Source of the DNA: Closterium sp. NIES-65
Taxonomy: Eukaryota > Streptophyta > Zygnematophyceae > Desmidiales > Closteriaceae
Assembly (NCBI GenBank): GCA_948144175.1
Contig: CANXME010000399.1
Location: forward strand, 1-64,000
Direction of reading: 5' to 3'
Length of the DNA: 64,000 bases
Below are positions 22,379 through 52,260 of this stretch, one piece after another; the stretch's first letter is position 1; the number at the start of each line of letters is the position of its first letter. The position numbers were made by a program, and so were the translations under genes. The notes below the pieces were generated by a model that was given only the letters and a program-made list of their open reading frames with translations, searched no databases and was not told where the DNA came from.

Positions 22379-22640
22379 GAGGGGGACTTTATTGGTGCAA
22401 CCCTACGGTTTGCACTCGGCTTGTTGTTTGCGTGCGTGCATGCGTGTGTGCATGGAATAGTATGAGGGCATGGAATTATATGAATTTCATGCTTATAACA
22501 ATGTGGGCGTGGCGATTCATGATGTCGAATGAGTGTATCGAGTCAATAGCGAGTTATATCTAGTCGTGTGTCACGCCGTCATTTGTGTGTCGTACGCGGT
22601 TTTCTATTTTGTCGCATGTGAAACGTTGGGCGTGTCACAT

Positions 22641-22781
22641 TGTCAGTAGATCTGCATTGTGGATGCCCGATTGATCCTGGAGAGGGTTACAGGCGCGTTT
22701 GCCTGGGCGGTTATGGGCGCACTGACCTGCTACTGAAACAAGCCCTTTTATCCCAATGGTCTAGTGGTTGGGATTCTGACA
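22641..22781 (+). repeat. 5' LTR of T2
   Basis: The 141-bp repeat ends GGGATTCTGACA. Its last 25 bases resemble the 5' half of a tRNA-Glu-like gene (TGGTCTAGTGGTTGGGATTC). Confidence 0.93.
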
Positions 22782-22811
22782 TGGTATCAGAGCGGTCTCG
22801 GGTTCGATTCC
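22757..22811 (+). promoter_or_regulatory. Bipartite RNA polymerase III (tRNA-type) promoter across LTR/PBS
   Basis: The A box TGGTCTAGTGG (22757-22767) fits the consensus TRGYNNARNNG and lies in the LTR. The B box GGTTCGATTCC (22801-22811) fits GGTTCGANTCC and lies after the PBS. Their distance equals that from position 8 to position 52 of a tRNA. A D-arm (GTCTAGTGGTTGGGAT) and a T-arm (TCGGG, loop TTCGATT, CCCGG) can form. TCTGA in the LTR end can pair with TCAGA in the PBS around a 7-base loop. Acceptor strands do not pair. Activity is inferred. Confidence 0.72.
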
Positions 22812-22874
22812 CGGTGTATGCACATGTAGGCCGTTGCCGCTGTGCTTAGTCCTGGGCCTCCCAGTGTGGGGGGG

Positions 22875-23015
22875 TGTCAGTAGATCTGCACTGTGGATGC
22901 CCGATTGATCCTGGAGAGGGTTACAGGCGCGTTCGCCTGGGGGGTTATGGGCGCACCGACCTGCTACTGAAACAAGCCCTTTTATCCCAATGGTCTAGTG
23001 GTTGGGATTCTGACA
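22875..23015 (+). repeat. 3' LTR of T2
   Basis: This 141-bp repeat carries the A box but no B box behind it, because host sequence (CACATGTGTG) follows. A TTTT tract at 22980-22983 could stop polymerase III. Confidence 0.93.
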
Positions 23016-23562
23016 CACATGTGTGTGCAGCAGACTCCCGAGAACTCAAGAATGAGTTTATGGTGAAGAAACAGAGCCTTGGTTTCCAGATTCAAGTGAC
23101 TTTGAAGCTCGTCAAAGGGGCAAACTTCAAGATAGTGAGAATAGATACATTACAGCTTGTAGTGTAACATCTATCTTGGTATAGGTCCTTATGGAGGTCA
23201 GTTTCGAGACCCTTCTTGCTAGGCGATAATTTGGCGCTGTTCCACGTTACTGTACCTCAGCTCTTGGGGTTTGTAGAGGCTGGGAGTCATTCCCAACTCG
23301 TAACTCTTCCTAATTTGTGTTACAAGACTATAGTGGCTGCTATAGTGCTGTTTGTTCAAACTCAAGTTGCATCGTCAATTCTTGATGAAATCATGCGATT
23401 CAAAGTGCCTATTGTAGATGATGTCAAGACGCTTCAGATCCAAGTTATAGCATGCAATTTAGAGTTGTGACCAGAATGCTATAAACGTTTAAAGCCGCTG
23501 TGTAGAAATCCGGCCGTGCACTTAATCTTTCGTTTCAAGCCTATTGTGGTTATAACAATCTC

Positions 23563-23769: not shown

Positions 23770-24862
23770 TGTTGGTGTAAGGGCCTAATAAACTCAAGCT
23801 ATTAAGACTTTATCACACTTAAAACCTCTCCTCGGGGTCACCTCCAAGGGTCCTTGGGTGCCTGGTACAAGACCAGCCCCTATCCTCGGGTCCGAGTTTG
23901 TAGAGAGAGGGATCAAGAGGGACTTAGTCAAAACAGCAAGAGTACCTTGAGCGTCGCGCAGCGTATCGTGCAGACCGTCGACCGGATTAAGCTGAGAATT
24001 TCCTATATCGAAGCTCACTCTAAGAGCTTTAAAATAAGCCAAGTTGCCTCGCGAAAAGTTCTGCCATTACGAAGTTATGGCTCGGACAGCGTTAGCCTAG
24101 CGTTGGAGTGCTAGCGTACTAGCGTTGACTCGGGTAGCATTCCGCCGTCGCACCGCGTAGAAAAGAAATTCCAGCAAGGAAGGAATTCGCTTGAATCAAT
24201 TTCACTATATTCAGGTACAAACAGAGAAGGAATAAATAGCTCTAGCTAGCAAGGACCTTGGGAATCAACCTGGGAACAACCAGGGATGATCCCAAATAAT
24301 TCCAAGCAACAGAACCAACCTGGCTGGACAAAATAGCAGGTGATAGGTTGGTGAACAACCTCTGGTTCTGTTTTTCCAACCTGGGAAAACAACAACCAGG
24401 TTCAGGTCCTAAAAACAGAACCTGTTTTGTCTTTGCCCAACCAGCCAAATGCTGGTTCCGCTGGTTTCCCCTGGCCCTGTAGCATGCAGATACAGACAAA
24501 CAACATCCAACCTTCACCTAAATTGTACCCCTATAGTGCCTGCCCTGCTACACTATAGTCAACCAAACAAAACAGTACAATTTCGAGTTGGATAGAACTG
24601 AATCTGCGCAATCAAGTAAGCCGAACCGCAAAGCTTCCATCTTGGGTTCCTTTGCGAGCTCGTCCTTTCTGCTTGTACTGTTCATAGCGCGTACAATGTT
24701 ATGCCGCAGCGCACATTTTGCGAGTACCTGCAAATGCTTCAAGCGAAAATTGCGAAAGCAAACAAACACACGAACATACCATTCACACGCAAATGCATTC
24801 GCACACGCATACTCGTACAAACAGACGGCAGGATGTCGTGCAATGTGAATTTGCACCCAACA
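23770..24862 (-). repeat. 3' LTR of A4
   Basis: This is the 1093-bp family A LTR in reverse. It lacks one base in the T run after GGTTGTTG compared with A2 and A5. The PPT lies just beyond it at 24863-24875. Confidence 0.95.
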
Positions 24863-24904
24863 CACTCCCCCTCAGCCTGCCGGCTGCATCCCCATCATTC
24901 CATA

Positions 24905-27900
24905 CTAGTTCATGCTCATTCCACTCATGCGCACACAACGCCAATGAGGCTCATCCGCAAGCCTCTTGGTGAGGAAGTCTGCTGGCTGCTGGTGAGTCTT
25001 GATGTAGATCGGATTCACCGTCCCCCTCTTCACCTCCTTACGCAGCCAGTGCCACTTGATACGCATGTGCTTATTCAGCCCATGAAGCACAGCGTTCCTG
25101 GCCATCCCAAGAGCTCCCTTGCTATCACAAAACAGCGGCGTAGCAACCTTTTGCTCCTGGCCAATCTCCTCGAACAGCCTCCTCAGCCAAATCACCTCCT
25201 TCACCCCATGGAACATCGCCATGTACTCTGATTCCACGGAAGAGAGTGCTGTCTCCGTCTGCTTCTTTGACCTCCAACTAACCGGTCCTCCCCCAACTAC
25301 GCAGATGTATCCTCCCACAGATGAGGAATCCTCCTTCTCAGAGGCCCACGTAGCATCAGTAAAGCAAGTAAGAAAAAGCTTGCCTTCTCCAAGCCTCTCC
25401 CCCTTCTCTTTCAGCACCTCAACCCCTTTCTGCTTCACCTGTGCAGATGCGGAGTATTGAACTCCAATGCTTGGGTGAGAGTTCAGATACTTCACCACAC
25501 GCTCAGCTGCATCCACCTGCTCCTCTGATGGATTCTGCACTACCCTAGCCAGCTGCCCAACCGAGAAAGAGATGTCGGGTCTCGTGTGAACTGCTGCATA
25601 CAAGAGGCTGCCCACCAAGGACTGAAATTGCTGCTGCTCCTCGGCTTCAACCCCTTCATCCTCTGCAGCTTTCACAAGCTTGAATTCTGCTGGCAGGGGA
25701 GTTGCAACCTTGCGCTCATTCTCAATTCCGTACTTCTCCCCAAGCTCCTTGATGAACTTCTCCTGGTGCAGCTTCAACCACCTGTGATCCAGATCCCTCT
25801 CCACGTGCATCCCGAGGTAGTACTTTACCTCCCCAAGGTTCTTGCACTTGAAGTTCTCCATCAGCTGCTGCTGCACCTTCTGGATCTCCTTCATGCTGCT
25901 GCTAAAGAGAAGAATGTCGTCCACATAGACCAGAAACAGCACCAGCTTCTCCCCCTCCCCCTTGAGAAAGAGGCTCTCATCACAGCTGCTGGTCCTGAAT
26001 CCCATCTCCTCTAAAACAGCTGCCAAGTTCTGGTACCAGCAGCGTGGCGCCTGCTTCAAGCCATAGATGGACTTTTTCAGCTTGCACACCCTGCCCGTAC
26101 CATCCTCATACCCAGGTGGCTGCGTCATGAACACCTCCTCCTCTAAAATCCCGTTGAGAAATGCCGTTGATATGTCCATCTGGATAATGAACTTCCCACT
26201 AACGGCTGCATCTGCCAACAAGACACGAAGGGTAGGGGGTTTGGCAGTGGGAGCAAAGATCTCATTGAAGTCCCGCTTCTCCTTCTGCATAAACCCCTTA
26301 GCCACCAACCTACTCTTGTAGATGGTGACCTGCCCCTTGTCGTCAGTCTTGATCCTTAGCACCCACTTGCATTGTACCGCTTTCTTTCCCTCAGGCAGCA
26401 CCACTAGTTCCCAAGTCCCATTCTCCAGCAGGCTCTGGTACTCAGCATCCCTGGAAGCTAGCCATTTGTCCCTATCTGGTCCAGCTAATGCCTCCTCCAT
26501 GCTAGCTGGTTCCTCTGGTGCAGGGGCAAGAAAACAGTACGCAGGTTGATCCTCCTCATCCGGGTCATAGCCATGCGGTAGAATCAGCAATGCCTCCTCG
26601 GTCCCAAGCTGCTGCTCCGCTACATCAGCTCTTGCAGTCAGCTTCTTAGTAGCCGTACGGGTACGTCCTGGCCTGGAGACGGGTGTCTCCCATCCCTTCA
26701 TAACGACACCCTTCGGCTTCTTAGTTTTCCCCTGCTGCTGCTCTCCTCCCTCGGATCCAGCAGCTCCACTAGTGCTACCGCTAATCTCCACACCATCACC
26801 TCCACCAGCAGGTGCCTCCTGCACCTTCTCTTTATCACCACCCTCTGCAGCTGCCTCCTCTCCCTCCTCCCACACACTAGGAGTCAGGTCCAGCTGCATG
26901 GTAATCTGCTCCATCTGCTGGGACACCCTGGCCTCCGGCTGTTTCTCCCAGCTCCCATACATCATGCCCTCAACAAACTTCACATCCCTGCTGTCAAACA
27001 ACACACCCTTGGAAGGCTCCCACAGCAGCCATCCCTTGCTCTCAGCTGCCAGCCCCAAATGCACACACCAGATTGCACTTGCCCCCAACTTACTGCGGTA
27101 GGTCTTGGGGACGTGGGCGACTGCCATGCAACCGAACACCCTCAGCATGTCCACCGGCGGCTTCCTCCCAAGCCACCTCTCCAACGGCACCCACGAGTCA
27201 TCCCCAACCTTTGTGAGTACCCTGTTCCTAGCGACGGTAGCGTGCCGAACAGCATGGGGCCACATCAAGTTGCCCAGCCCAGATTCTATGAGCAGCGCCC
27301 TAGCTGTCTCCAGAATTGTCCGGTTCGCCCGTTCTGCTACACCGTTGGACTGTGGGGTGTAAGCCGTGGTCAGCTCCCTCTGGATGCCCTGCTTCTTGAG
27401 CCAGGCCGTCATCTCAGCTCCAAGGAACTCACCACCCCAATCTGTCCTAATCCGCTTCACCACACACTCCGCTTGCTTCTCCACGAACGGCAGCCAATCG
27501 TCCCGAATCGTGGAGGCGGCGTGATCTTTCCGCTTCAGCGGATACGCCCACATTAGCCTGCTCCAGTCATCCACTATGGTTAGGAAGTACCGCTCCCCCT
27601 TGTGCCCTTGCACCGGCAGCGGCCCCACCAAGTCCATGTGGACCAGCTCCAACGGCTTTTTGCTCCTGCCAGCCACACTATGGAAGGGGAAACGGGTGAA
27701 CTTTGAAAGGAGGCAAATTTCACAGTTATCATCGGGTGGTTGTCCGTTCAGCTTTAAGCCCTTAACGGCTCCATCCTTCTCCAGCTGCTTCAGCAAAGGC
27801 ATTGCCACATGCCCCAAACGTCGGTGTGCAGTTGCCCAATCTGTCTCCCCAGATCTGGCCGACACTTTCACACCAACTCCTCCAACGGCGTTGCACTCCC

Positions 27901-29485
27901 CCTGGGATGCAGACCCCTCTCTAGCCTGCCCCCCACCGTGCCACGCCTGCGCCGGCAGCTGCCACATAGATCTGTACACGTCCTTGCTCTCGTGCAGATC
28001 CCAAAGCACCCGATTGCCCAGCTTCCCCTTATAAGTGCGAGCCCCATCCGTGTTGGTGTTCACCCCAGCCTTGCCAAGCTTACGGAGGGAGATGAGGTTG
28101 GCCTTCAGGTCGGGGACGAGGAGAACGTCGTGCAGCACCACCGGCTTGCCATCCGCTCCCTTAAATGCAGCTCGTCCCGCACCAGCCACCTTCAACATGT
28201 GTCCAGAGGCAGAGCACACCTCATTAATCGGTGCAGCGCGTACGTCGTCCAGCAGGTCCTTGCGCGGCGTCATTGTCCAAGCAGCGCCTGTGTCCAACAC
28301 CCAATAGTCCAGGGGGTGCAGCTCTGCTCCAGCCTTAGCAGATGCGTCTCCTTGCTCCCCCTTGTCTCCCATATGGAAGAATTGGCCCGCGGTGCGCTCC
28401 TTCTTCTTCTCCGCACCGCCGTTGCCCTTCGGGTTGTTGTCGGACGAATCAGCGACCATGTTGGCGCCGTTTTTCTGGTTCCTCCGCGCGCCGCCATCCT
28501 GGTGACGATTCTGGGGGGTCCATCCATCGGGTTTCTTATAGCACAAAAACCAGGGGTGCCCTTCCTTCTCACAATACCAGCAACTCCCTTTCATTTTGCC
28601 ACCAGCACCCGACTTGCCCCCACGTCCAGATTTCGCACCGCGACCCCAACCGGTACCTCCTTGTTGGTCGTTGGAGTCGTCGTCTTTCTTTGCACCGCGT
28701 CCAGCACCACCGAAGCCACGTCCTTTGCCACGTCGGCTCCCTTGCATCCCGTAGCCGCTGCTGCCGTCGTCTCCACCCCTCAGTTGGCGGCGACGGAAGT
28801 CCTCCTCCAGAATCTTCGTCCGCACCCACTCGAGCGTCCACAAGCTCTGGTTCTGCGGCAGGCTCAATCCGCTCGTAAATTGAAGCCACGATTCCGGCAG
28901 CAGCGAGAGCATCTTCAAGCACTTTGTTTGCTCCGGGTAGGTGATTCCTGCGGTCGCCAACTTCGCGTAGAGGTCGCGCAATTTGTCCAGGACAGGTTGC
29001 ACCGGCTCTCCCTCGCTCAGGCGCAACGCGGACAGCTCCCTCTCCAGCATCAATGTTGCAACAACGGAGGTCGGGGCGTGCAGCTCCTTCAACACCGTCC
29101 ACGCCTTCGGACCGCACTCAACCTCCGGCAGCAGGTGCATGACGTGGTGACGCTGGTTCAGCTCCAAACTCTGCGACATCAAGTAGTAGCCAGCCGAGGC
29201 GCGCTCGTCCCAATCTTCCTGAAGGGCGGGGTCACTCGGTCTAGGCTCCTCCCCAATCATTAGTTTCAGCAATCCGATTTGACGGAAATAAAGTTGCATT
29301 TTCCAGGCCCAATCATCATAGCCCTCACCATTGAACTTCTCGACGGTGAAGTTTTTCAGCACCTCCTTGATCAGCGAGCCCTGGCTTGTTCGCGCTCCCC
29401 TTGGCGCAGAAACACCAGAATCATGGCTGCCGCTACGATCTTGGGCTGAAGATTCACCAGCTACCGCCGAGGTGTTGCCCGCCAT
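24905..29485 (-). CDS. Gag-Pol polyprotein of A4 (Ty1/copia)
   Basis: This is an intact 1526-residue copia polyprotein with the same architecture and numbering as in A2: Gag, CCHC knuckle 302-315, protease DTGA 398, integrase D618/D682/E718, RT YVDD 1187-1190 and RNase H D1377/E1418/D1454. Replacements versus A2 and A5 include R683 to W, next to the second integrase aspartate (RTDWGGEF), plus Q to R in PLKRKDH and A to R in LTARADV. The catalytic residues themselves are kept. Whether the W next to D682 harms integration cannot be told from sequence. A4 represents a second young lineage. Confidence 0.95.
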   Translation of the reverse strand: MAGNTSAVAGESSAQDRSGSHDSGVSAPRGARTSQGSLIKEVLKNFTVEKFNGEGYDDWAWKMQLYFRQIGLLKLMIGEEPRPSDPALQEDWDERASAGYYLMSQSLELNQRHHVMHLLPEVECGPKAWTVLKELHAPTSVVATLMLERELSALRLSEGEPVQPVLDKLRDLYAKLATAGITYPEQTKCLKMLSLLPESWLQFTSGLSLPQNQSLWTLEWVRTKILEEDFRRRQLRGGDDGSSGYGMQGSRRGKGRGFGGAGRGAKKDDDSNDQQGGTGWGRGAKSGRGGKSGAGGKMKGSCWYCEKEGHPWFLCYKKPDGWTPQNRHQDGGARRNQKNGANMVADSSDNNPKGNGGAEKKKERTAGQFFHMGDKGEQGDASAKAGAELHPLDYWVLDTGAAWTMTPRKDLLDDVRAAPINEVCSASGHMLKVAGAGRAAFKGADGKPVVLHDVLLVPDLKANLISLRKLGKAGVNTNTDGARTYKGKLGNRVLWDLHESKDVYRSMWQLPAQAWHGGGQAREGSASQGECNAVGGVGVKVSARSGETDWATAHRRLGHVAMPLLKQLEKDGAVKGLKLNGQPPDDNCEICLLSKFTRFPFHSVAGRSKKPLELVHMDLVGPLPVQGHKGERYFLTIVDDWSRLMWAYPLKRKDHAASTIRDDWLPFVEKQAECVVKRIRTDWGGEFLGAEMTAWLKKQGIQRELTTAYTPQSNGVAERANRTILETARALLIESGLGNLMWPHAVRHATVARNRVLTKVGDDSWVPLERWLGRKPPVDMLRVFGCMAVAHVPKTYRSKLGASAIWCVHLGLAAESKGWLLWEPSKGVLFDSRDVKFVEGMMYGSWEKQPEARVSQQMEQITMQLDLTPSVWEEGEEAAAEGGDKEKVQEAPAGGGDGVEISGSTSGAAGSEGGEQQQGKTKKPKGVVMKGWETPVSRPGRTRTATKKLTARADVAEQQLGTEEALLILPHGYDPDEEDQPAYCFLAPAPEEPASMEEALAGPDRDKWLASRDAEYQSLLENGTWELVVLPEGKKAVQCKWVLRIKTDDKGQVTIYKSRLVAKGFMQKEKRDFNEIFAPTAKPPTLRVLLADAAVSGKFIIQMDISTAFLNGILEEEVFMTQPPGYEDGTGRVCKLKKSIYGLKQAPRCWYQNLAAVLEEMGFRTSSCDESLFLKGEGEKLVLFLVYVDDILLFSSSMKEIQKVQQQLMENFKCKNLGEVKYYLGMHVERDLDHRWLKLHQEKFIKELGEKYGIENERKVATPLPAEFKLVKAAEDEGVEAEEQQQFQSLVGSLLYAAVHTRPDISFSVGQLARVVQNPSEEQVDAAERVVKYLNSHPSIGVQYSASAQVKQKGVEVLKEKGERLGEGKLFLTCFTDATWASEKEDSSSVGGYICVVGGGPVSWRSKKQTETALSSVESEYMAMFHGVKEVIWLRRLFEEIGQEQKVATPLFCDSKGALGMARNAVLHGLNKHMRIKWHWLRKEVKRGTVNPIYIKTHQQPADFLTKRLADEPHWRCVRMSGMSMN

Positions 29486-29516
29486 AGCTACCTATATCGA
29501 GGATCACTATAACGCA

Positions 29517-29528
29517 GCTCTGATACCA
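29517..29528 (-). other. Primer-binding site of A4
   Basis: The minus strand reads TGGTATCAGAGC three bases inside the LTR, the exact initiator-tRNA-Met type. Confidence 0.9.
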
Positions 29529-29531
29529 GCT

Positions 29532-30624
29532 TGTTGGTGTAAGGGCCTAATAAACTCAAGCTATTAAGACTTTATCACACTTAAAACCTCTCCTCGGGGT
29601 CACCTCCAAGGGTCCTTGGGTGCCTGGTACAAGACCAGCCCCTATCCTCGGGTCCGAGTTTGTAGAGAGAGGGATCAAGAGGGACTTAGTCAAAACAGCA
29701 AGAGTACCTTGAGCGTCGCGCAGCGTATCGTGCAGACCGTCGACCGGATTAAGCTGAGAATTTCCTATATCGAAGCTCACTCTAAGAGCTTTAAAATAAG
29801 CCAAGTTGCCTCGCGAAAAGTTCTGCCATTACGAAGTTATGGCTCGGACAGCGTTAGCCTAGCGTTGGAGTGCTAGCGTACTAGCGTTGACTCGGGTAGC
29901 ATTCCGCCGTCGCACCGCGTAGAAAAGAAATTCCAGCAAGGAAGGAATTCGCTTGAATCAATTTCACTATATTCAGGTACAAACAGAGAAGGAATAAATA
30001 GCTCTAGCTAGCAAGGACCTTGGGAATCAACCTGGGAACAACCAGGGATGATCCCAAATAATTCCAAGCAACAGAACCAACCTGGCTGGACAAAATAGCA
30101 GGTGATAGGTTGGTGAACAACCTCTGGTTCTGTTTTTCCAACCTGGGAAAACAACAACCAGGTTCAGGTCCTAAAAACAGAACCTGTTTTGTCTTTGCCC
30201 AACCAGCCAAATGCTGGTTCCGCTGGTTTCCCCTGGCCCTGTAGCATGCAGATACAGACAAACAACATCCAACCTTCACCTAAATTGTACCCCTATAGTG
30301 CCTGCCCTGCTACACTATAGTCAACCAAACAAAACAGTACAATTTCGAGTTGGATAGAACTGAATCTGCGCAATCAAGTAAGCCGAACCGCAAAGCTTCC
30401 ATCTTGGGTTCCTTTGCGAGCTCGTCCTTTCTGCTTGTACTGTTCATAGCGCGTACAATGTTATGCCGCAACGCACATTTTGCGAGTACCTGCAAGTGCT
30501 TCAAGCGAAAATTGCGAAAGCAAACAAACACACGAACATACCATTCACACGCAAATGCATTCGCACACGCATACTCGTACAAACAGACGGCAGGATGTCG
30601 TGCAATGTGAATTTGCACCCAACA
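29532..30624 (-). repeat. 5' LTR of A4
   Basis: This 1093-bp repeat is nearly identical to the partner at 23770-24862. It is followed by CATTG and gypsy integrase sequence. Confidence 0.95.
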
Positions 30625-31260
30625 CATTGATGACGTAGCATTGTTGTAGGTAAACTCTACCAGCGGAAATTGTTGCTCCCAAGTTGTTGGGCTGTCGCAC
30701 ATGGCGCGATTCGGTTGCTCCATGGTCTGGTTCGTTCTGATCCCACAAGTTTTTCCACAAGTTGCTTGTAACCTTCGTGTCATGATTGCTAATGATTGTG
30801 GATGGTAAACGGTGCACACGAACGATAGACGCCATGAGCATGTGAGCAGTTTGTTCAGCTAAGGTCGATTTCATTCACGCAGAGAAGTGATCGATTTTGG
30901 TCAGTCGATCAATGATAACCATGACCTCGTCGCTACCAGCAGGACACGAAGGTAACCTTGTGATGAAATCCATTGTAACTTGCTGCGAGGCGCATTCATG
31001 TGGCAGGACCGTCTTCATTTGCCTCACTTTTCTTTTGAGCGAACACTTCATCATCGACATGTGGGGCACGAACCCACGTGATGCTGTACGTCAATCAACA
31101 GCTCCGGCGAGTAATAGTAACGTTGCAGTTGCAGTTGCTGTCGCGTTTTTTCGACCCCGAAGTGACCCAAGGTAACTCCGTCGTGTGCCTCATGCACTAA
31201 CAGGTCCCGTTGCAGTGAATATGCCAGTACCCAGATGCGGTTGGTGCCAGTCTTCACGTA
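30625..31260 (-). pseudogene. Gypsy element N, integrase zinc finger and core
   Basis: The minus strand gives the HHCC zinc region (HEAHDGVTLGHFG...CPTC), then the core with QVTMDFITRLP, VIIDRLTKIDHF and IISNHDTKVTSNLW. These match Ty3/gypsy integrase (MDFI..LP, DR.SK..HF, SDRD..FTS). Frame changes interrupt it near 31050 and 30875. The C-terminal end is displaced to 23563-23769 by A4. Confidence 0.85.
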
Positions 31261-38780: not shown

Positions 38781-39186
38781 TGTGTTGGGTGCAAATTCAC
38801 ATTGCACGACATCCTGCCGTCTGTTTGTACGAGTATGCGTGTGCGAATGCATTTGCGTGTGAATGGTATGTTTGTGTGTTTGTTTGCTTTCGCAATTTTC
38901 GCTTGAAGCATTTGCAGGTACTCGCAAAATGTGCGCTTCGGCATAACATTGTACGCGCTATGAACAGTACAAGCAGAAAGGACGAGCTCGCAAAGGAACC
39001 CAAGATGGAAGCTTTGCGGTTCAACTTACTTGATTGCGCAGATTCAGTTCTATCCAACTCGAAATTGTACTGTTTTGTTTGGTTGACTATAGTGTAGCAG
39101 GGCAGGCACTATAGGGGTACAATTTAGGTGAAGGTTGGATGTTGTTTGTCTGTATCTGCATGCTACAGGGCCAGGGGAAACCAGCG

Positions 39187-39382
39187 GAACCAGCATTTGG
39201 CTGGTTGGGCAAAGACAAAACAGGTTCTGTTTTTAGGACCTGAACCTGGTTGTTGTTTTTCCCAGGTTGGAAAAACAGAACCAGAGGTTGTTCACCAACC
39301 TATCACCTGCTATTTTGTCCAGCCAGGTTGGTTCTGTTGCTTGGAATTATTTGGGATCATCCCTGGTTGTTCCCAGGTTGAT
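39187..39382 (+). promoter_or_regulatory. Clustered CCAGGTTGG-type motifs in the LTR
   Basis: About ten variants of CCTGGTTG, CCAGGTTGG and their reverse complements (AACCAG, CCAACC) occur in 196 bases just upstream of the TATA-like box. The cluster is kept in every family A LTR in the window. The number and placement suggest enhancer sites or a foldable RNA; the binding factor is unknown. Confidence 0.4.
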
Positions 39383-39406
39383 TCCCAAGGTCCTTGCTAG
39401 CTAGAG

Positions 39407-39415
39407 CTATTTATT
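39407..39415 (+). promoter_or_regulatory. Candidate TATA box of A5
   Basis: CTATTTATT lies at about base 625 of the LTR. The same place in A1 reads CTATATATT, closer to a canonical TATA box. Transcription would then start roughly 30 bases on, leaving about 440 bases of R and U5. Confidence 0.35.
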
Positions 39416-39879
39416 CCTTCTCTGTTTGTACCTGAATATAGTGAAATTGATTCAAGCGAATTCCTTCCTTGCTGGAATTTCTTTTCTACGCGGTGCGACG
39501 GCGGAATGCTACCCGAGTCAACGCTAGTACGCTAGCACTCCAACGCTAGGCTAACGCTGTCCGAGCCATAACTTCGTAATGGCAGAACTTTTCGCGAGGC
39601 AACTTGGCTTATTTTAAAGCTCTTAGAGTGAGCTTCGATATAGGAAATTCTCAGCTTAATCCGATCGACGGTCTGCACGATACGCTGCGCGACGTTCAAG
39701 GTACTCTTGCTGTTTTGACTAAGTCCCTCTTGATCCCTCTCTCTACAAACTCGGACCCGAGGATAGGGGCTGGTCTTGTACCAGGCACCCAAGGACCCTT
39801 GGAGGTGACCCCGAGGAGAGGTTTTAAGTGTGATAAAGTCTTAATAGCTTGAGTTTATTAGGCCCTTACACCAACAAGC

Positions 39880-39891
39880 TGGTATCAGAGC
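39880..39891 (+). other. Primer-binding site of A5
   Basis: TGGTATCAGAGC lies three bases after the LTR and matches the initiator-tRNA-Met type exactly. Confidence 0.9.
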
Positions 39892-39922
39892 TGCGTTATA
39901 GTGATCCTCGATATAGGTAGCT

Positions 39923-42900
39923 ATGGCGGGCAACACCTCGGCGGTAGCTGGTGAATCTTCAGCCCAAGATCGTAGCGGCAGCCATGATTCTGGTGTTTCT
40001 GCGCCAAGGGGAGCGCGAACAAGCCAGGGCTCGCTGATCAAGGAGGTGCTGAAAAACTTCACCGTCGAGAAGTTCAATGGTGAGGGCTATGATGATTGGG
40101 CCTGGAAAATGCAACTTTATTTCCGTCAAATCGGATTGCTGAAACTAATGATTGGGGAGGAGCCTAGACCGAGTGACCCCGCCCTTCAGGAAGATTGGGA
40201 CGAGCGCGCCTCGGCTGGCTACTACTTGATGTCGCAGAGTTTGGAGCTGAACCAGCGTCACCACGTCATGCACCTGCTGCCGGAGGTTGAGTGCGGTCCG
40301 AAGGCGTGGACGGTGTTGAAGGAGCTGCACGCCCCGACCTCCGTTGTTGCAACATTGATGCTGGAGAGGGAGCTGTCCGCGTTGCGCCTGAGCGAGGGAG
40401 AGCCGGTGCAACCTGTCCTGGACAAATTGCGCGACCTCTACGCGAAGTTGGCGACCGCAGGAATCACCTACCCGGAGCAAACAAAGTGCTTGAAGATGCT
40501 CTCGCTGCTGCCGGAATCGTGGCTTCAATTTACGAGCGGATTGAGCCTGCCGCAGAACCAGAGCTTGTGGACGCTCGAGTGGGTGCGGACGAAGATTCTG
40601 GAGGAGGACTTCCGTCGCCGCCAACTGAGGGGTGGAGACGACGGCAGCAGCGGCTATGGGATGCAAGGGAGCCGACGTGGCAAAGGACGTGGCTTCGGTG
40701 GTGCTGGACGCGGTGCAAAGAAGGACGACGACTCCAACGACCAACAAGGAGGTACCGGTTGGGGTCGCGGTGCGAAATCTGGACGTGGGGGCAAGTCGGG
40801 TGCTGGTGGCAAAATGAAAGGGAGTTGCTGGTATTGTGAGAAGGAAGGGCACCCCTGGTTTTTGTGCTATAAGAAACCCGATGGATGGACCCCCCAGAAT
40901 CGTCACCAGGATGGCGGCGCGCGGAGGAACCAGAAAAACGGCGCCAACATGGTCGCTGATTCGTCCGACAACAACCCGAAGGGCAACGGCGGTGCGGAGA
41001 AGAAGAAGGAGCGCACCGCGGGCCAATTCTTCCATATGGGAGACAAGGGGGAGCAAGGAGACGCATCTGCTAAGGCTGGAGCAGAGCTGCACCCCCTGGA
41101 CTATTGGGTGTTGGACACAGGCGCTGCTTGGACAATGACGCCGCGCAAGGACCTGCTGGACGACGTACGCGCTGCACCGATTAATGAGGTGTGCTCTGCC
41201 TCTGGACACATGTTGAAGGTGGCTGGTGCGGGACGAGCTGCATTTAAGGGAGCGGATGGCAAGCCGGTGGTACTGAACGACGTTCTCCTCGTCCCCGACC
41301 TGAAGGCCAACCTCATCTCCCTCCGTAAGCTTGGCAAGGCTGGGGTGAACACCAACACGGATGGGGCTCGCACTTATAAGGGGAAGCTGGGCAATCGGGT
41401 GCTTTGGGATCTGCACGAGAGCAAGGACGTGTACAGATCTATGTGGCAGCTGCCGGCGCTGGCGTGGCACGGTGGGGGGCAGGCTGGAGAGGGGTCTGCA
41501 TCCCAGGGGGAGTGCAACGCCGTTGGAGGGGTTGGTGTGAAAGTGTCGGCCAGATCTGGGGAGACAGATTGGGCAACTGCACACCGACGTTTGGGGCATG
41601 TGGCAATGCCTTTGCTGAAGCAGCTGGAGAAGGATGGAGCCGTTAAGGGCTTAAAGCTGAACGGACAACCACCCGATGATAACTGTGAAATTTGCCTCCT
41701 TTCAAAGTTCACCCGTTTCCCCTTCCATAGTGTGGCTGGCAGGAGCAAAAAGCCGTTGGAGCTGGTCCACATGGACTTGGTGGGGCCGCTGCCGGTGCAA
41801 GGGCACAAGGGGGAGCGGTACTTCCTAACCATAGTGGATGACTGGAGCAGGCTAATGTGGGCGTATCCGCTGAAGCAGAAAGATCACGCCGCCTCCACGA
41901 TTCGGGACGATTGGCTGCCGTTAGTGGAGAAGCAAGCGGAGTGTGTCGTGAAGCGGATTAGGACAGATCGGGGTGGTGAGTTCCTTGGAGCTGAGATGAC
42001 GGCCTGGCTCAAGAAGCAGGGCATCCAGAGGGAGCTGACCACGGCTTACACCCCACAGTCCAACGGTGTAGCAGAACGGGCGAACCGGACAATTCTGGAG
42101 ACAGCTAGGGCGCTGCTCATAGAATCTGGGCTGGGCAACTTGATGTGGCCCCATGCTGTTCGGCACGCTACCGTCGCTAGGAACAGGGTACTCACAAAGG
42201 TTGGGGATGACTCGTGGGTGCCGTTGGAGAGGTGGCTTGGGAGGAAGCCGCCGGTGGACATGCTGAGGGTGTTCGGTTGCATGGCAGTCGCCCACGTCCC
42301 CAAGACCTACCGCAGTAAGTTGGGGGCGAGTGCAATCTGGTGTGTCCATTTGGGGCTGGCTGCTGAGAGCAAGGGATGGCTGCTGTGGGAACCTTCCAAG
42401 GGTGTGTTGTTTGACAGCAGGGATGTGAAGTTTGTTGAGGGCATGATGTATGGGAGCTGGGAGAAACAGCCGGAGGCCAGGGTGTCCCAGCAGATGGAGC
42501 AGATTACCATGCAGCTGGACCTGACTCCTAGTGTGTGGGAGGAGGGAGAGGAGGCAGCTGCAGAGGGTGGTGATAAAGAGAAGGTGCGGGAGGCACCTGC
42601 TGGTGGAGGTGATGGTGTGGAGATTAGCGGTAGCACTAGTGGAGCTGCTGGATCCGAGGGAGGAGAGCAGCAGCAGGGGAAAACTAAGAAGCCGAAGGGT
42701 GTTATTATGAAGGGATGGGAGACACCCGTCTCCAGGCCAGGACGTACCCGTATGGCTACTAAGAAGCTGACTGCAGGAGCTGATGTAGCGGAGCAGCAGC
42801 TTGGGACCGAGGAGGCATTGCTGATTCTACCGCATGGCTATGACCCGGATGAGGAGGATCAACCTGCGTACTGTTTTCTTGCCCCTGCACCAGAGGAACC

Positions 42901-44503
42901 AGCTAGCATGGAGGAGGCATTAGCTGGACCAGATAGGGACAAATGGCTAGCTTCCAGGGATGCTGAGTACCAGAGCCTGCTGGAGAATGGGACTTGGGAA
43001 CTAGTGGTGCTGCCTGAGGGAAAGAAAGCGGTACAATGCAAGTGGGTGCTAAGGATCAAGACTGACGACAAGGGGCAGGTCACCATCTACAAGAGTAGGT
43101 TGGTGGCTAAGGGGTTTATGCAGAAGGAGAAGCGGGACTTCAATGAGATCTTTGCTCCCACTGCCAAACCCCCTACCCTTCGTGTCTTGTTGGCAGATGC
43201 AGCCGTTGGTGGGAAGTTCATTATCCAGATGGATATATCAACGGCATTCCTCAATGGGATTTTAGAGGAGGAGGTGTTCATGACGCAGCCGCCTGGGTAT
43301 GAGGATGGTACGGGCAGGGTGTGCAAGCTGAAAAAGTCCATCTACGGCTTGAAGCAGGCGCCACGCTGCTGGTACCAGAAGTTGGCAGCTGTTTTAGAGG
43401 AGATGGGATTCAGGACCAGCAGCTGTGATGAGAGCCTCTTTCTCAAGGGGGAGGGGGAGAAGCTGGTGCTGTTTCTGGTCTATGTGGACGACATTCTTCT
43501 CTTTAGCAGCAGCATGAAGGAGATCCAGAAGGTGCAGCAGCAGCTGATGGAGAACTTCAAGTGCAAGAACCTTGGGGAGGTAAAGTACTACCTCGGGATG
43601 CACGTGGAGAGGGATCTGGATCACAGGTGGTTGAAGCTGCACCAGGAGAAGTTCATCAAGGAGCTTGGGGAGAAGTACGGAATTGAGAATGAGCGCAAGG
43701 TTGCAACTCCCCTGCCAGCAGAATTCAAGCTTGTGAAAGCTGCAGAGGATGAAGGGGTTGAAGCTGAGGAGCAGCAGCAATTTCAGTCCTTGGTGGGCAG
43801 CCTCTTGTATGCAGCAGTTCACACGAGGCCCGACATCTCTTTCTCGGTTGGGCAGCTGGCTAGGGTAGTGCAGAATCCATCAGAGGAGCAGGTGGATGCA
43901 GCTGAGCGTGTGGTGAAGTATCTGAACTCTCACCCAAGCATTGGAGTTCAATACTCCGCATCTGCACAGGTGAAGCAGAAAGGGGTTGAGGTGCTGAAAG
44001 AGAAGGGGGAGAGGCTTGGAGAAGGCAAGCTTTTTCTCACTTGCTTTACTGATGCTACGTGGGCCTCTGAGAAGGAGGATTCCTCATCTGTGGGAGGATA
44101 CATCTGCGTAGTTGGGGGAGGACCGGTTAGTTGGAGGTCAAAGAAGCAGACGGAGACAGCACTCTCTTCCGTGGAATCAGAGTACATGGCGATGTTCCAT
44201 GGGGTGAAGGAGGTGATTTGGCTGAGGAGGCTGTTGGAGGAGATTGGCCAGGAGCAAAAGGTTGCTACGCCGCTGTTTTGTGATAGCAAGGGAGCTCTTG
44301 GGATGGCCAGGAACGCTGTGCTTCATGGGCTCAATAAGCACATGCGTATCAAGTGGCACTGGCTGCGTAAGGAGGTGAAGAGGGGGACGGTGAATCCGAT
44401 CTACATCAAGACTCACCAGCAGCCAGCAGACTTCCTCACCAAGAGGCTTGCGGATGAGTCTCATTGGCGTTGTGTGCGCATGAGTGGAATGAGCATGAAC
44501 TAG
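39923..44503 (+). CDS. Gag-Pol polyprotein of A5 (Ty1/copia)
   Basis: This 1526-residue polyprotein has no lesion. In order it encodes Gag, the knuckle CWYCEKEGHPWFLC (302-315), protease VLDTGAAW (398), the pre-integrase zinc region, integrase with HMDLVGPL, TDRGGEF and NGVAERANR, RT with FLVYVDDILLF, and RNase H with TDATWAS, VESEYMA and CDSKGAL. Length and order fit copia. It acts in cytoplasmic virus-like particles and then in the nucleus. It differs from A2 at only a few bases, such as near 41947, 42587 and 43273. With identical LTRs this is the best candidate for a mobile source copy. Confidence 0.97.
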   Translation: MAGNTSAVAGESSAQDRSGSHDSGVSAPRGARTSQGSLIKEVLKNFTVEKFNGEGYDDWAWKMQLYFRQIGLLKLMIGEEPRPSDPALQEDWDERASAGYYLMSQSLELNQRHHVMHLLPEVECGPKAWTVLKELHAPTSVVATLMLERELSALRLSEGEPVQPVLDKLRDLYAKLATAGITYPEQTKCLKMLSLLPESWLQFTSGLSLPQNQSLWTLEWVRTKILEEDFRRRQLRGGDDGSSGYGMQGSRRGKGRGFGGAGRGAKKDDDSNDQQGGTGWGRGAKSGRGGKSGAGGKMKGSCWYCEKEGHPWFLCYKKPDGWTPQNRHQDGGARRNQKNGANMVADSSDNNPKGNGGAEKKKERTAGQFFHMGDKGEQGDASAKAGAELHPLDYWVLDTGAAWTMTPRKDLLDDVRAAPINEVCSASGHMLKVAGAGRAAFKGADGKPVVLNDVLLVPDLKANLISLRKLGKAGVNTNTDGARTYKGKLGNRVLWDLHESKDVYRSMWQLPALAWHGGGQAGEGSASQGECNAVGGVGVKVSARSGETDWATAHRRLGHVAMPLLKQLEKDGAVKGLKLNGQPPDDNCEICLLSKFTRFPFHSVAGRSKKPLELVHMDLVGPLPVQGHKGERYFLTIVDDWSRLMWAYPLKQKDHAASTIRDDWLPLVEKQAECVVKRIRTDRGGEFLGAEMTAWLKKQGIQRELTTAYTPQSNGVAERANRTILETARALLIESGLGNLMWPHAVRHATVARNRVLTKVGDDSWVPLERWLGRKPPVDMLRVFGCMAVAHVPKTYRSKLGASAIWCVHLGLAAESKGWLLWEPSKGVLFDSRDVKFVEGMMYGSWEKQPEARVSQQMEQITMQLDLTPSVWEEGEEAAAEGGDKEKVREAPAGGGDGVEISGSTSGAAGSEGGEQQQGKTKKPKGVIMKGWETPVSRPGRTRMATKKLTAGADVAEQQLGTEEALLILPHGYDPDEEDQPAYCFLAPAPEEPASMEEALAGPDRDKWLASRDAEYQSLLENGTWELVVLPEGKKAVQCKWVLRIKTDDKGQVTIYKSRLVAKGFMQKEKRDFNEIFAPTAKPPTLRVLLADAAVGGKFIIQMDISTAFLNGILEEEVFMTQPPGYEDGTGRVCKLKKSIYGLKQAPRCWYQKLAAVLEEMGFRTSSCDESLFLKGEGEKLVLFLVYVDDILLFSSSMKEIQKVQQQLMENFKCKNLGEVKYYLGMHVERDLDHRWLKLHQEKFIKELGEKYGIENERKVATPLPAEFKLVKAAEDEGVEAEEQQQFQSLVGSLLYAAVHTRPDISFSVGQLARVVQNPSEEQVDAAERVVKYLNSHPSIGVQYSASAQVKQKGVEVLKEKGERLGEGKLFLTCFTDATWASEKEDSSSVGGYICVVGGGPVSWRSKKQTETALSSVESEYMAMFHGVKEVIWLRRLLEEIGQEQKVATPLFCDSKGALGMARNAVLHGLNKHMRIKWHWLRKEVKRGTVNPIYIKTHQQPADFLTKRLADESHWRCVRMSGMSMN

Positions 44504-44545
44504 TATGGAATGATGGGGATGCAGCCGGCAGGCTGAGGGGGAGTG

Positions 44546-45639
44546 TGTTGGGTGCAAATTCACATTGCACGACATCCTGCCGTCTGTTTGTACGAGTATG
44601 CGTGTGCGAATGCATTTGCGTGTGAATGGTATGTTTGTGTGTTTGTTTGCTTTCGCAATTTTCGCTTGAAGCATTTGCAGGTACTCGCAAAATGTGCGCT
44701 TCGGCATAACATTGTACGCGCTATGAACAGTACAAGCAGAAAGGACGAGCTCGCAAAGGAACCCAAGATGGAAGCTTTGCGGTTCAACTTACTTGATTGC
44801 GCAGATTCAGTTCTATCCAACTCGAAATTGTACTGTTTTGTTTGGTTGACTATAGTGTAGCAGGGCAGGCACTATAGGGGTACAATTTAGGTGAAGGTTG
44901 GATGTTGTTTGTCTGTATCTGCATGCTACAGGGCCAGGGGAAACCAGCGGAACCAGCATTTGGCTGGTTGGGCAAAGACAAAACAGGTTCTGTTTTTAGG
45001 ACCTGAACCTGGTTGTTGTTTTTCCCAGGTTGGAAAAACAGAACCAGAGGTTGTTCACCAACCTATCACCTGCTATTTTGTCCAGCCAGGTTGGTTCTGT
45101 TGCTTGGAATTATTTGGGATCATCCCTGGTTGTTCCCAGGTTGATTCCCAAGGTCCTTGCTAGCTAGAGCTATTTATTCCTTCTCTGTTTGTACCTGAAT
45201 ATAGTGAAATTGATTCAAGCGAATTCCTTCCTTGCTGGAATTTCTTTTCTACGCGGTGCGACGGCGGAATGCTACCCGAGTCAACGCTAGTACGCTAGCA
45301 CTCCAACGCTAGGCTAACGCTGTCCGAGCCATAACTTCGTAATGGCAGAACTTTTCGCGAGGCAACTTGGCTTATTTTAAAGCTCTTAGAGTGAGCTTCG
45401 ATATAGGAAATTCTCAGCTTAATCCGATCGACGGTCTGCACGATACGCTGCGCGACGTTCAAGGTACTCTTGCTGTTTTGACTAAGTCCCTCTTGATCCC
45501 TCTCTCTACAAACTCGGACCCGAGGATAGGGGCTGGTCTTGTACCAGGCACCCAAGGACCCTTGGAGGTGACCCCGAGGAGAGGTTTTAAGTGTGATAAA
45601 GTCTTAATAGCTTGAGTTTATTAGGCCCTTACACCAACA
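44546..45639 (+). repeat. 3' LTR of A5
   Basis: This 1094-bp repeat is preceded by the PPT (CTGAGGGGGAG plus TG) and followed by TCCT and the integrase region of I. Confidence 0.95.
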
Positions 45640-48321: not shown

Positions 48322-48446
48322 GGTCAAACTTCTATGCTATAGTCTGTGTAGGCTGTAGTGGGGTAGACTATATGGGGTACAACATTTCTAGGTTATCCTA
48401 CTTGTACCCACCTCTTTCCTAGTTCATCCATTCCTCATTCTTCACA
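48322..48446 (+). repeat. 5' LTR of J
   Basis: This 125-bp repeat begins GGTCAAACTTC (probably TGTCAAAC with a first-base change) and ends CATTCTTCACA. It is close to the 3' LTR of D. The PBS TGGTATAGAGCAGG begins at 48447, one base short of the usual TGGTATCAGAGC. Confidence 0.78.
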
Positions 48447-48529
48447 TGGTATAGAGCAGGTTCCCTCGTGGGAACGCTTCTCAAGGACCACCACTGAACT
48501 CGATTTTTCCCACCCGAGGCGCGCCCCGT

Positions 48530-49330
48530 AGGCCGCCCTTACGACGCGCTCCCTTAGCGGCCCCTCTCACGGCCCCTCGCGCCACCCTTAGCGGCCCCGT
48601 CGCCGTCCTTTGCGGCCCCGTCGCCACCCCTCTAGGCCCCTTACGGCCCCTTTGCGGCCCGGTCGCCGCCCCTCTAGGCCCCGTCGCCGCCCCTCTAGGC
48701 CCCTCACGGCCTCTACGCGGCCCCGTTGCCGCCGCTCTAGGCCCCGTGGCCACCCCTCTAGGCCCCTCGCCGCCCCTTCGCGGCCCCGTCGCCGCCCCTA
48801 GTGGCCCCGTCGCCGCCTCTCTAGACCCCTTACGGCCCCTTCGCGGCCTCGTCGCCGCCCCTCTAGGCCCCTTGCAGCCCCTCTGCGGCCCCGTTGCCGC
48901 CCCTAGCGGCCCCGTCGCCGCCCCTGGAGGCCCCGTCGCCGCCCTTCGCGGCCACCTCGCCGCCCTTCGTGGCCCCGTTGCCCCCCCTAGCGGCCCCGTC
49001 GCCACTCTTCACGGCCTCGTAGACGCCCCTAGCGGCCCCGTCGCCGCCCTTTCACGACCCTATTGCCGCCTCTGCCAGCCCCGTTGCCGCCCTTCACGGC
49101 CCCTTCACCGCCGACCCGCCCAGCAGCCGAGCCGCCAAGCCGTCCAGCACCCGAGCAGCCGAGCCACCGAGCCGCCCAGCAGCCAAGCCGCCGAGCCGCC
49201 CAATACCTGAGCCACCGAGCCGCCGAGCCGCCCAGCAGCCGAGCCGCCGAGCCGCCCAGCAGCCGAGCCGCCGAGCAGCTACCGTCGAGCCACCACTGCC
49301 ACTACCGAGCCGCTGCCACCGCTATTGTAG
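48530..49330 (+). repeat. GC-rich tandem leader of J
   Basis: The first part has dozens of degenerate units of about 20 bases (GGCCCCGTCGCCGCCCCT). From 49110 shorter units follow (GCCGAGCCGCCCAGCA). It lies between PBS and gag. Open frames exist on both strands but encode only Pro/Arg/Ala or Gly/Arg/Pro repeats, so they are not called as genes. Confidence 0.82.
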
Positions 49331-49405
49331 CCCTGCTCCTTCCGGCGCGCCCCGGCCCTACCCACCCAGACTGGTGAGAGCCCTCCCTGCTAGACCACTG
49401 CTATC

Positions 49406-49880
49406 ATGGCTACCCCCAGTGTCCTTACCATTGATGCTGAGGGTCGTGCTGTTGACTTCGAGGTCTGGATCGATGACCTGCAGCTTTTCCTACAGTGCGA
49501 TAGGGCAGACAGACTCTCCCTGTTCGATCTCACCTCTGGTGCCTCTCCTGCCCCGCCTACTGATGCTGATAGCACTGTTTGCTCACAGTGGGCCACGCGA
49601 GATGCTACTGCCCATCTTGTTGTGCGTCGCCACTTACCGACCGCTGAGCGTGCGCATTTTAGTCAGTACAAGAATGCTAAGATGTTGTACGACGTTGTAG
49701 TTGCACGCTACTCTTCCCCTGCCACTGCTGCTCTTAGCCGCCTCATACTGCCGTACCTGTTTCCCGACCTCGCCGCCTTTCCGACCATTGCTGACCTCGT
49801 TACGCACCTTCGCACTAGTGACACCCGCTACTGAGCTGCGCCTTCTGCTGATTTCTGCGCCAAGAACCCCCCCCCCCCCA
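49406..49880 (+). pseudogene. Gag N-terminal fragment of J
   Basis: The start MATPSVLTIDAEGRAVDFE is followed by DDLQLFLQCD, AHLVVRRHLP and LVTHLRTSDTRY, then TGA. This is a UBN2-like copia Gag (about 140 residues) with hydrophobic helices. A run of 13 C near 49870 precedes the break. The start is the first ATG after the leader, shared with K (50970). Confidence 0.8.
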
Positions 49881-49887
49881 TGTACAT

Positions 49888-50012
49888 TGTCAATCTCATA
49901 TTATCTAGCTTGTGTAGGCTATAGTGGGGTAGACTCTATGGGGTACAGTTTCCTAGGGTTTCCTGCTTGTACCCAACCTTGTGCTAGTTCATTCACTCCT
50001 TCTTTCTTCACA
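49888..50012 (+). repeat. 5' LTR of K
   Basis: This 125-bp repeat runs from TGTCAATCTCATATT to CTTTCTTCACA. The PBS TGGTATAGAGCAGG at 50013 is the same as in J. Confidence 0.85.
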
Positions 50013-50089
50013 TGGTATAGAGCAGGTTCCCTCGTGGGAACGCTTCCTTGGGCCCACCACTAAAATATTTTTTCTGACCGGAGCGTCAG

Positions 50090-50920
50090 TCGCTCCTGCC
50101 CGAGGCGCGCCTTGTTGGCCGCCCTCCCAGGCCCCTAGTGGTCCCTAGCGGCCTCGTTGCCGCCCCTACGCGGCCCCGTAGCCGCCACTAGCGGCACCGT
50201 CGCTGCCCCTAGCGGCCCCGTTGCCGCCTCTCTCCCAACGCAGCCCCGCCGCCGCCCCTACGCGGCCCCGTCGCCGTCACTACGTAGCCCCGTCGCCACC
50301 CCTACGCGGCCTCGTCGCCGCCCCTAGCGGCCCTGTCGCCGCTCCCCTACCTACGCGGCCCCGTCACTGTTCCTAGCGGCCTCGTCGCCGCCCCTACGCG
50401 GCCCGGTCGCCGCCCCTACGCGGCCCAGTCGCCGCCCCTAACGGCCCCGTCGCCGCCCCTAGCGGCCCCGTCGCCGCTCCCCTTCCTATACGACCCTGTA
50501 GCCACCACTACACGGCCCCGTTGCCGCCCCTACGCGACCCCGTAGCCGCCTCTGGCGGCCCCGTGGCAGCTCCCCTCCCTACGCGGCCCCGTCGCCGCCC
50601 CAAGCGGCCCCAACGCTGCCTTTGCCGGCCCCGTCGCCGCCTCTACCGAGCAGCCCAGCAGCTGAGCCGCCCAACAGCGAAGCCGCCGAGGCATCCAGCA
50701 GCCGAGCCACCCAGCAACCGAGCCGCCAAGCCGCCCGACAGCCAAGCCGCCCAACAGCCGAGCGGCCGAGCCGCCCAGCAAACGTACCGCCGAGCCGCCC
50801 GACAGCCGAGCCACCCGACTGCCGAGCCGCCAAAGAGCCGAGTCGCCCAGCAGCCGAGCCGCTTAGCCGCCGAGCCGCCCTGCCGTCGAGCCGCTGCTGT
50901 TCCTACTGGTGCGCCCCGGC
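50090..50920 (+). repeat. GC-rich tandem leader of K
   Basis: Units such as CGGCCCCGTCGCCGCCCCTA repeat over about 550 bases, then CAGCCGAGCCGCC units over about 230. The same two-part layout is seen in J, with different unit counts. Confidence 0.82.
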
Positions 50921-50969
50921 CCTACTTACTCGGACTGGTGAGCTCACTTCTTGCTAGGCCACTACACTC

Positions 50970-52260
50970 ATGGCTACCTCCAGTGTTCATACATTTGATA
51001 CTGAGGGTCGTGCTGTTGACTTTGAGGTCTCGATCGATGAACTCCAGCTGTTCATCCAGTGCGATAGGGCAGACGACCTCTCCCTGTTCAATCTCACCTC
51101 TGGTGCCTACCCTGCCCCGCCTGCTACTGGTGACAGTACCGTTCGCTCACAGTGGGCCACACGCGATGCTGCTGCCCATCTTGCTATGCGTCGCCACTTA
51201 CTGACCACTCAGCGTGCGCACTTTAGCCAGTAGAAGAGTGCTCAGACCTTGTACGACGTTGTAGTTGCTCGCTACTCTTCCCCTGTCACTCCTGCGCTGA
51301 GCCGCCTCATGCTACCATACATCTTCCCTGACCTTGCTGCCTTTCCCATAGTTGCTGACCTCATTACGCACCTCCGCACTAAAGACACTCGCTACCGCGC
51401 TGCGCATCCTGCTGAGTTGTGTGCTAACAACCCCCCCCTCCCCCATGTACATCAACCTCTACTACATAGTCACCCAGCTCCCTAACTCCCTTTGCTTAGT
51501 CAGGGACCACTTCCTCTCAGTTTGCCCCACCACTCTCACCGTTGACCTCCTCGAGGAGCGCCTCCTAGCAGCAGAGAAGATCATAGTCGCTGTAGGAGCC
51601 TCTCGTGGTGACCCTCGCACCCCCGTCTTTGAGGGGTGTTCCTCTTCCCCCCTCTTGCCTTCTGTTGCTTCTGCTGCTACGGCCGACCTCGTTGGTTTCG
51701 AGTCGGTCGGCGTTGCGTCTGCCCCTAGCGAGAGACGCCGCACCGGCAAGGGCAAGGGGGGCAAGGGCGCTGGAGGGGCTGTCGGGGGCGGTGGAGGTGG
51801 TGGTGGAGGCAGTGGAGGGGGTGGGAGTGGTGGTGGGAGTGGTGGCGGGGGTGGAGGTGTTGGTGGCAGCAGTGGAGGCGGAGGCGGTGGCGGCGGTGGC
51901 CGAGGGAGCGAAAGCGGCGGATGTGGCGAAGGCGGCGGGGGTGGCGGAGGCGGCGGGGGTGGCGGATGCGGCGGAGATAGCGGCGGCAGCGGTGGAGCTG
52001 GTCGCGGCTCTGCGCAGAGGAGTGGGTCCAGTGGTGGTCCGCGCCAGCAGCAGCAGCGTAGTCGTGAGACCCTGTCCCCTCAGCAGCTCCGTGAGTGATA
52101 CTCTGCGCATCAGCGCAGTGGGGGTACTGGTCCCTGCACGTACGTCCTCCGTACCGGCGACCACGCTAGTGAGTAGTGCGGGGGCCCGCACTCCACCCAG
52201 CGCTGCTTCGGCCGACTGACGGACGCGTGGCACCACCAGTACCCTGAGGCCTCTGAGATC
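50970..52260 (+). pseudogene. Gag of K
   Basis: MATSSVHTFDTEGRAVDFE starts a copia Gag closely like that of J. It reads to a TAG at 51231-51233 (TAC in J), continues from 51249, and frameshifts near 51440 into LVRDHFLSVCPTTLTVDLLEERLL. A Ser/Gly-rich stretch (51760-52000, nearly all Gly) follows. A Cys/His segment near 52130 (CTYVLRTGDHA...CGGPHSTQRC) stands where the zinc knuckle is expected but contains a stop. Confidence 0.83.

Follow-up and report, generated by a model that had tools for sequence, protein, structure and literature searches.

The question raised by this locus is whether a small, gene-free LTR element can carry a tRNA-type promoter for pol III which is put together only where its 5′ LTR meets the PBS. 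The element in question, T2, is an intact TRIM of 375 bp located at positions 22641-23015 on the plus strand of the window, i.e., the whole stretch of 64 kb of Closterium sp. NIES-65 DNA that was analysed.

Structure of T2 and its box pair

The sequence-only reading had described T2 as structurally complete, and this is borne out by two LTRs of 141 nt each with 97% identity, a PBS which starts directly after the 5′ LTR, a polypurine tract (PPT) and the sequence CACAT at both ends. With a size below 1 kb, two LTRs, a PBS and a PPT the element is built like a TRIM, and on the basis that no open reading frame of at least 350 amino acids lies within it we also regard it as noncoding. The PBS was identified by comparison with what we take to be the sequence of the plant initiator tRNA-Met. 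The features of the element are as follows:

22636-22640, plus strand: left target-site duplication CACAT, identical to 23016-23020
22641-22781, plus strand: 5′ LTR, 141 bp, TGTCA...TGACA, 97% identity to 22875-23015
22739-22741, plus strand: CAA motif, putative pol III start region
22746-22749, plus strand: TTTT in the leader of the 5′ LTR, putative 3′ edge of R
22757-22767, plus strand: A box TGGTCTAGTGG in the end of the LTR (U5), exact consensus match
22782-22793, plus strand: PBS TGGTATCAGAGC, complementary to the 3′ end of the plant initiator tRNA-Met
22801-22811, plus strand: B box GGTTCGATTCC, internal region (not part of the LTR), exact consensus match
22868-22874, plus strand: run of G (G7), polypurine tract adjoining the 3′ LTR
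22875-23015, plus strand: 3′ LTR with a copy of the A box at 22991-23001 and without B box
22980-22983, plus strand: TTTT in the 3′ LTR, putative pol III terminator
22740-22983, plus strand: predicted pol III transcript, length about 244 nt and R about 10 nt, from the positions of CAA and TTTT
23016-23020, plus strand: right target-site duplication CACAT

Both boxes of T2 agree exactly with the consensus sequences that we assume for the A box (TRGYNNARNNG) and the B box (GGTTCGANTCC). They are separated by 33 nt, and their starts are 44 bp apart, like positions 8 and 52 of a tRNA. A search of both strands of the window for A and B boxes that are exact and 20-60 nt apart gave this pair alone. 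The initial description of consensus boxes at a tRNA-like spacing is confirmed. Even when one mismatch is permitted, the B box is found a single time in the 64 kb, and the 3′ LTR is therefore without it. As had been proposed, the two boxes come together only at the junction between the 5′ LTR and the internal region; the window's sole B box is located past the PBS. At seven other PBS-like sites in the window the sequence GGTTCGA followed by A or T was not found.

Copies of the element and conservation of the junction

T2 belongs to a high-copy family in the genome, which comprises 874 Mb in 2,400 contigs. The exact PBS followed 3-18 nt on by GGTTCGA occurs genome-wide at 3,461 places (1,682 on one strand, 1,779 on the other), these being places of a pattern, neither individually checked elements nor a share of all PBS sites. 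The reversed PBS/B-core pattern occurs at none on either strand. The candidate numbers of a first look (398, 2,898, and 1,618) are not copy counts.

In the first 30 loci 21 of 32 full-length alignments of subfamily A had, right at the ends of the alignment, an exact duplication of 5 bp. A diverged relative in locus L023 (78.6% over the aligned part, with its own duplication CGGGA) led to subfamily B with 35 full-length alignments, 26 of them with exact duplications, some of these alignments being the same copy seen through overlapping loci. The search for full copies, by which the sequence-only reading was to be checked, was successful: the A and B sets together contain 42 distinct complete copies, 33 of them with exact 5-bp duplications, when identical copies are counted once and an AAGCC-type word is needed in U5 for the structural parse (50 copies, 37 with duplications, before repeats of one copy were merged). 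The identity between the two LTRs of a copy ranges from 90.1% to 100% with a median of 98.5%. A comparison of the flanks placed 56 of 60 loci at 50 distinct sites; L013, L015, L025, and L027 were left out, as the script did not find their junction, and some loci are haplotype or assembly duplicates (e.g., L001 with L002). The family thus consists, as is typical of TRIMs, of dispersed copies with target-site duplications.

Four loci (L006, L021, L072, and L081) contain tandem copies with common LTRs (LTR-inside-LTR-inside-LTR); the array in L006 is partial, and L072 and L081 overlap one array. In such tandem copies the predicted split promoter is recreated at every added junction. Long arrays have been published for Cassandra (PMC7215508). 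Furthermore, a T2-type copy is found in L028 (1309-1923) inside an older relative, right after the PBS of that relative, and in L030 a copy is located a few bases past the PBS-like site of another element.

The conservation of the boxes was analysed with junctions from L001-L030 and L061-L090 which had been chosen by U3 words and PBS (at most two mismatches) and not by the boxes; the U3 criterion was at least 12 9-mers in common with T2, which the most diverged copies can escape. In the 57 distinct junctions of subfamilies A and B the A box is exact in 51, the B box in 51 and both in 47, the TTTT in the leader is present in 52 and the CAA in 56. The gap between the boxes is 33 nt in 33 copies, 36 nt in 13, owing to a 3-base insertion after the PBS, and 32 nt in one. 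Subfamily C was retrieved with a piece of the older interrupted relative in L028, a piece that includes the 3′ LTR and the side with the B box but is without the 5′ A box. From the best 40 of 1,618 candidates, which were scored, we took the 20 for which a second, 5′ LTR match was listed. CAA and TTTT are found in all 20 leaders, the A box is exact in 13, the B box in 16 and both in 13 (11, 13, and 11, respectively, of 17 distinct sequences); in 4 of the 20 the script did not match the PBS core, hence there is no gap value for those. According to the sequence-only reading, copies that keep LTR and PBS and lack the boxes would speak against a promoter. The outcome is mostly in favour of the promoter reading, in that most copies keep both boxes, while 10 of the 57 junctions of A and B and 7 of the 20 of C are without an exact A or B box.

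The commonest difference in subfamily C is an A box which is one base shorter. It recurs in L101, L102, L104, L105, and L106, and is also present in L065, L070, and L071. Four of the five short-A-box copies of subfamily C also have an inexact B box, and such copies may represent a lineage with lost promoter function.

As a control we collected 60 distinct PBS-like sites (at most two mismatches, some maybe not a real PBS) from L001-L030, L061-L090, and L091-L098. An A or B motif accompanies 40 of them, of which 38 belong to the family by their U3 words and the remaining two (L006 and L090) have the U5 end of the family. Among the 20 sites without either motif there are two decayed family members (L080 and L028) and 18 non-family sites, so that both boxes are absent at 18 of 18 non-family sites in the control loci.

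When the majority letters of subfamilies A and B are compared, 2 of 75 promoter columns differ, versus 44 of 159 columns elsewhere. Of these 44 differences 29 fall in the stretch 174-220, which includes a deletion; without this stretch the comparison is 2 of 75 promoter columns versus 15 of 112 other columns (p 0.017). Ranked among 234 overlapping windows, the least variable first, the promoter segment comes 29th in A, 2nd in B and 5th between the two, and in subfamily A alone it is not unusually conserved. In view of these ranks and the deletion stretch, conservation is well supported, though short of overwhelming. The copies moreover share descent, and the counts therefore are not independent events. 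The split layout is real and family-wide, and between the subfamilies it is better conserved than the rest of the element.

On the sense strand T2 contains just two TTTT sequences, at 22746 and 22980, which occupy the equivalent position in the two LTRs slightly upstream of the A box, and the CAA at 22739 is near the leader TTTT. In the 42 distinct complete copies there are two TTTT in 35, one in 4, none in 2 and three (overlapping) in 1, and outside the two LTR leaders the sense strand has none in all 42.

Could two short motifs simply have matched by chance in one element and then have been multiplied by copying? There were few source copies, and hence the copy number by itself proves nothing. 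However, the exact pair was obtained in 0 of 20,000 simulated elements (first-order Markov copies of T2), and on this result we rejected a chance origin. Moreover the boxes are retained across subfamilies which are changed elsewhere, and CAA and TTTT are also in place, a sole TTTT at that leader position being found in about 2% of simulated 234-nt units. We therefore regard this explanation as extremely improbable.

tRNA likeness and the proposed transcript

The junction had also been said to have foldable D- and T-arms, which is true in part. The predicted fold contains a 5-bp/7-nt hairpin made up of the LTR end and the PBS and in addition a T-arm-like hairpin; the hairpin of the D region, however, exceeds a real D-arm in length, and the RNA fold of the junction is no more stable than that of shuffles (z -1.0). 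A tRNA detector, proposed as a further check, gave a mixed answer: ARAGORN called no tRNA in T2 at default settings, and with relaxed settings it called a tRNA-Val with a poor acceptor stem at the junction. Among the Rfam matches listed the T-arm alone gave a weak tmRNA match (9.7 bits, the cut-off being 47); the list omits two matches of the same clan with lower scores, and this clan presumably also includes tRNA. On these grounds a functional tRNA gene was rejected, and the junction is a promoter-like remnant rather than a tRNA gene.

A tRNA-family search of the genome, in which the best 63 of 18,457 candidates were scored, gave many identical and probably organellar copies and contributed little. 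Of 8 distinct tRNA sequences compared as candidate donors tRNA-Glu(CTC) was at the top, barely above tRNA-Asp. Another possibility is that the boxes are extra contacts for the primer tRNA, as they are present in Ty1 and Ty3, and were conserved for priming rather than for transcription. In line with this idea the boxes lie on both sides of the PBS, U5 end and PBS pair into a hairpin, and a T-loop is similar to its own reverse complement. Yet the complementarity to the initiator tRNA-Met, in the sequence that we assume for it, is no better than that of shuffles (equalled by 240 of 1000 on the A side and 149 of 1000 on the B side), and primer contacts were rejected as the reason for the boxes on this result. 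In the sense orientation, by contrast, the similarity to the tRNA-Glu gene of the same genome is above shuffles (equalled by 1 of 1000 on the A side and 7 of 1000 on the B side), and the boxes are absent at other sites with a similar PBS. Conservation for priming is thus improbable, if somewhat less so than chance.

The U5 hairpin around the A box (22750-22774) has one covarying pair, A-U in 31 and G-C in 7 of 38 junctions; this double change is possibly a single event. One pair of the T-arm stem is broken in 14 of the 38 junctions. The part that is kept would seem to be the boxes and not the tRNA fold.

In plant tRNA genes CAA is a start motif and poly(T) a terminator (PMC11700998). The CAA and TTTT of T2 suggest that pol III makes an RNA of about 244 nt in which R is tiny. 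We consider it quite probable that T2 is a nonautonomous TRIM transcribed by pol III from a type-2 promoter which is complete only at the junction of 5′ LTR and internal region. In this promoter the A box would lie in U5 and the B box just past the PBS, with the PBS in place of the anticodon arm. Pol III would initiate at the CAA, some 18 nt ahead of the A box, proceed through the internal region and U3 and stop at the TTTT of the 3′ LTR. R, defined by these two sites, would measure about 10 nt and could serve in first-strand transfer. Copying would be primed by initiator tRNA-Met bound to the PBS, and the proteins for it and for integration with a 5-bp duplication would come from a Copia-like element that has this PBS, too. 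This model starts from the observed structure, copies, boxes, spacing, conservation and positions of TTTT and CAA, and from these sequence data it predicts the use of pol III, the start and stop sites, R and the helper. Its weak point is that pol III, once started at the CAA, would meet the first TTTT no more than about 10 nt on and would have to read through it.

Alternatively T2 could be an ordinary pol II TRIM, in which the tRNA-like halves are the fossil of a SINE or tRNA insertion, inactive as promoter, and the junction is kept for other reasons. The missing call of the tRNA detectors at default settings, the broken T-arm pair and the inexact boxes in 10 of 57 and 7 of 20 junctions fit this explanation. 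On the other hand neither TATAA nor AATAAA is present in T2, and boxes, spacing, CAA and TTTT are kept in most copies of three subfamilies despite a changed U3 and inner region; in addition a broken T-arm pair together with an intact B box suits a DNA promoter more than a folded tRNA. We therefore judge a pol II TRIM to be unlikely, though it is the most serious of the alternatives.

Transcription by pol III could extend to a more far-reaching proposal, for which we see about even chances, namely that the whole transcription unit has moved to pol III: the promoter would exist only where the LTR meets the PBS, the PBS would replace the anticodon arm, CAA and TTTT would define the tiny R, and one RNA of about 244 nt would contain the promoter, the primer site and both ends. 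Having no B box, solo LTRs and 3′ LTRs would be silent, in contrast to elements with a full promoter in each LTR. If this is true, the U3 promoter of an LTR element can give way to an internal promoter of tRNA type, and T2 shows how such an element could meet the problem of start, stop and R with pol III signals. The proposal predicts that full-length elements are the sole active promoters, and in this algal relative of land plants thousands of junctions could be compared.

Known elements and other elements in the window

In tRNA-derived SINEs (SINE2) the A and B boxes follow the start, whereby the RNA takes the promoter along; these elements move by the LINE machinery. T2 resembles them in the position of its boxes relative to the predicted start and differs by its LTRs, PBS and PPT. 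Canonical plant TRIM and SMART elements agree with T2 in size, in the order LTR-PBS-PPT-LTR and in being gene-free; to our knowledge they carry no pol III promoter. These canonical TRIMs are the TRIMp2 of Kojima (2024; PMC10886601).

For TRIMs with pol III promoters the same paper proposes the name TRIMp3 and describes Helenus, TRIMs of fungi, animals and one plant whose LTRs include box A and box B within a tRNA-like sequence (Kojima 2024, PMC10886601). The plant Helenus is from Selaginella moellendorffii and has an LTR of 120 bp and an internal region of 85 bp (PMC10886601). T2 shares with Helenus the TRIM structure with tRNA-type boxes A and B, PBS and PPT, and with its plant and fungal families the 5-bp duplications. 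As Helenus is described there, both of its boxes are in the LTR, whereas in T2 the LTR holds the A box alone and the B box follows the PBS, so that both boxes are present only at the 5′ end of the full element. With regard to TRIMp3, the exact boxes of T2 are pol III promoter elements of small-RNA-gene type at the sequence level, and of a small-RNA-derived sequence its LTR contains the A-box half only. Closterium is unmentioned in the main text of the paper (PMC10886601). The sequence-only reading knew of no named family with such a promoter. This does not hold for the promoter type, since tRNA-type pol III TRIMs are already known as Helenus, and the novelty therefore seems to be limited to the split across LTR and PBS, for which no match was found in the titles and abstract openings of the open-licence full texts searched.

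Cassandra is a plant TRIM with a methionine PBS and a pol III promoter (PMC10853983); T2 shares the TRIM structure and the PBS, and its pol III promoter is predicted. Its promoter, however, is of 5S type and inside the LTR, while no 5S is among the Rfam matches listed for T2 up to an E value of 10. Ajax likewise is a TRIM with pol III promoter motifs and a 5-bp duplication, but its motifs are 5S-derived and within the LTRs, and it is described from two nemerteans (PMC10886601).

An autonomous partner having the LTR of T2 was not found. Site 34877 has 19 bp in common with T2 across a junction like that of LTR end and PBS; at this site, however, no direct repeat could be made out. In viral contigs the combination of PBS and B core was matched once; the match has no direct repeats nearby and was judged to be due to chance. 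Two Copia-like elements, read from their frames at 38781-45639 and 23770-30626, have LTRs of about 1.1 kb (100% and 99.8% identical, respectively), open frames of 1528 amino acids and the same PBS as T2, and are possible helpers. A short LTR element of 1342 bp at 55115-56456 has 124-bp ends with 99% identity, GTACT on both sides and an iMet PBS at 56332 (minus strand), past which there is no B box. At 48345-51452 the window contains two units of about 1.5 kb in tandem, which are 76% identical and rich in short-period repeats. Finally, the frame of a retrotransposon protein on the minus strand at 60890-62017 has 7,860 matches, and all named ones among the 120 listed are from Closterium (NIES-53, -54, -64, -65, and Naga37s-1).
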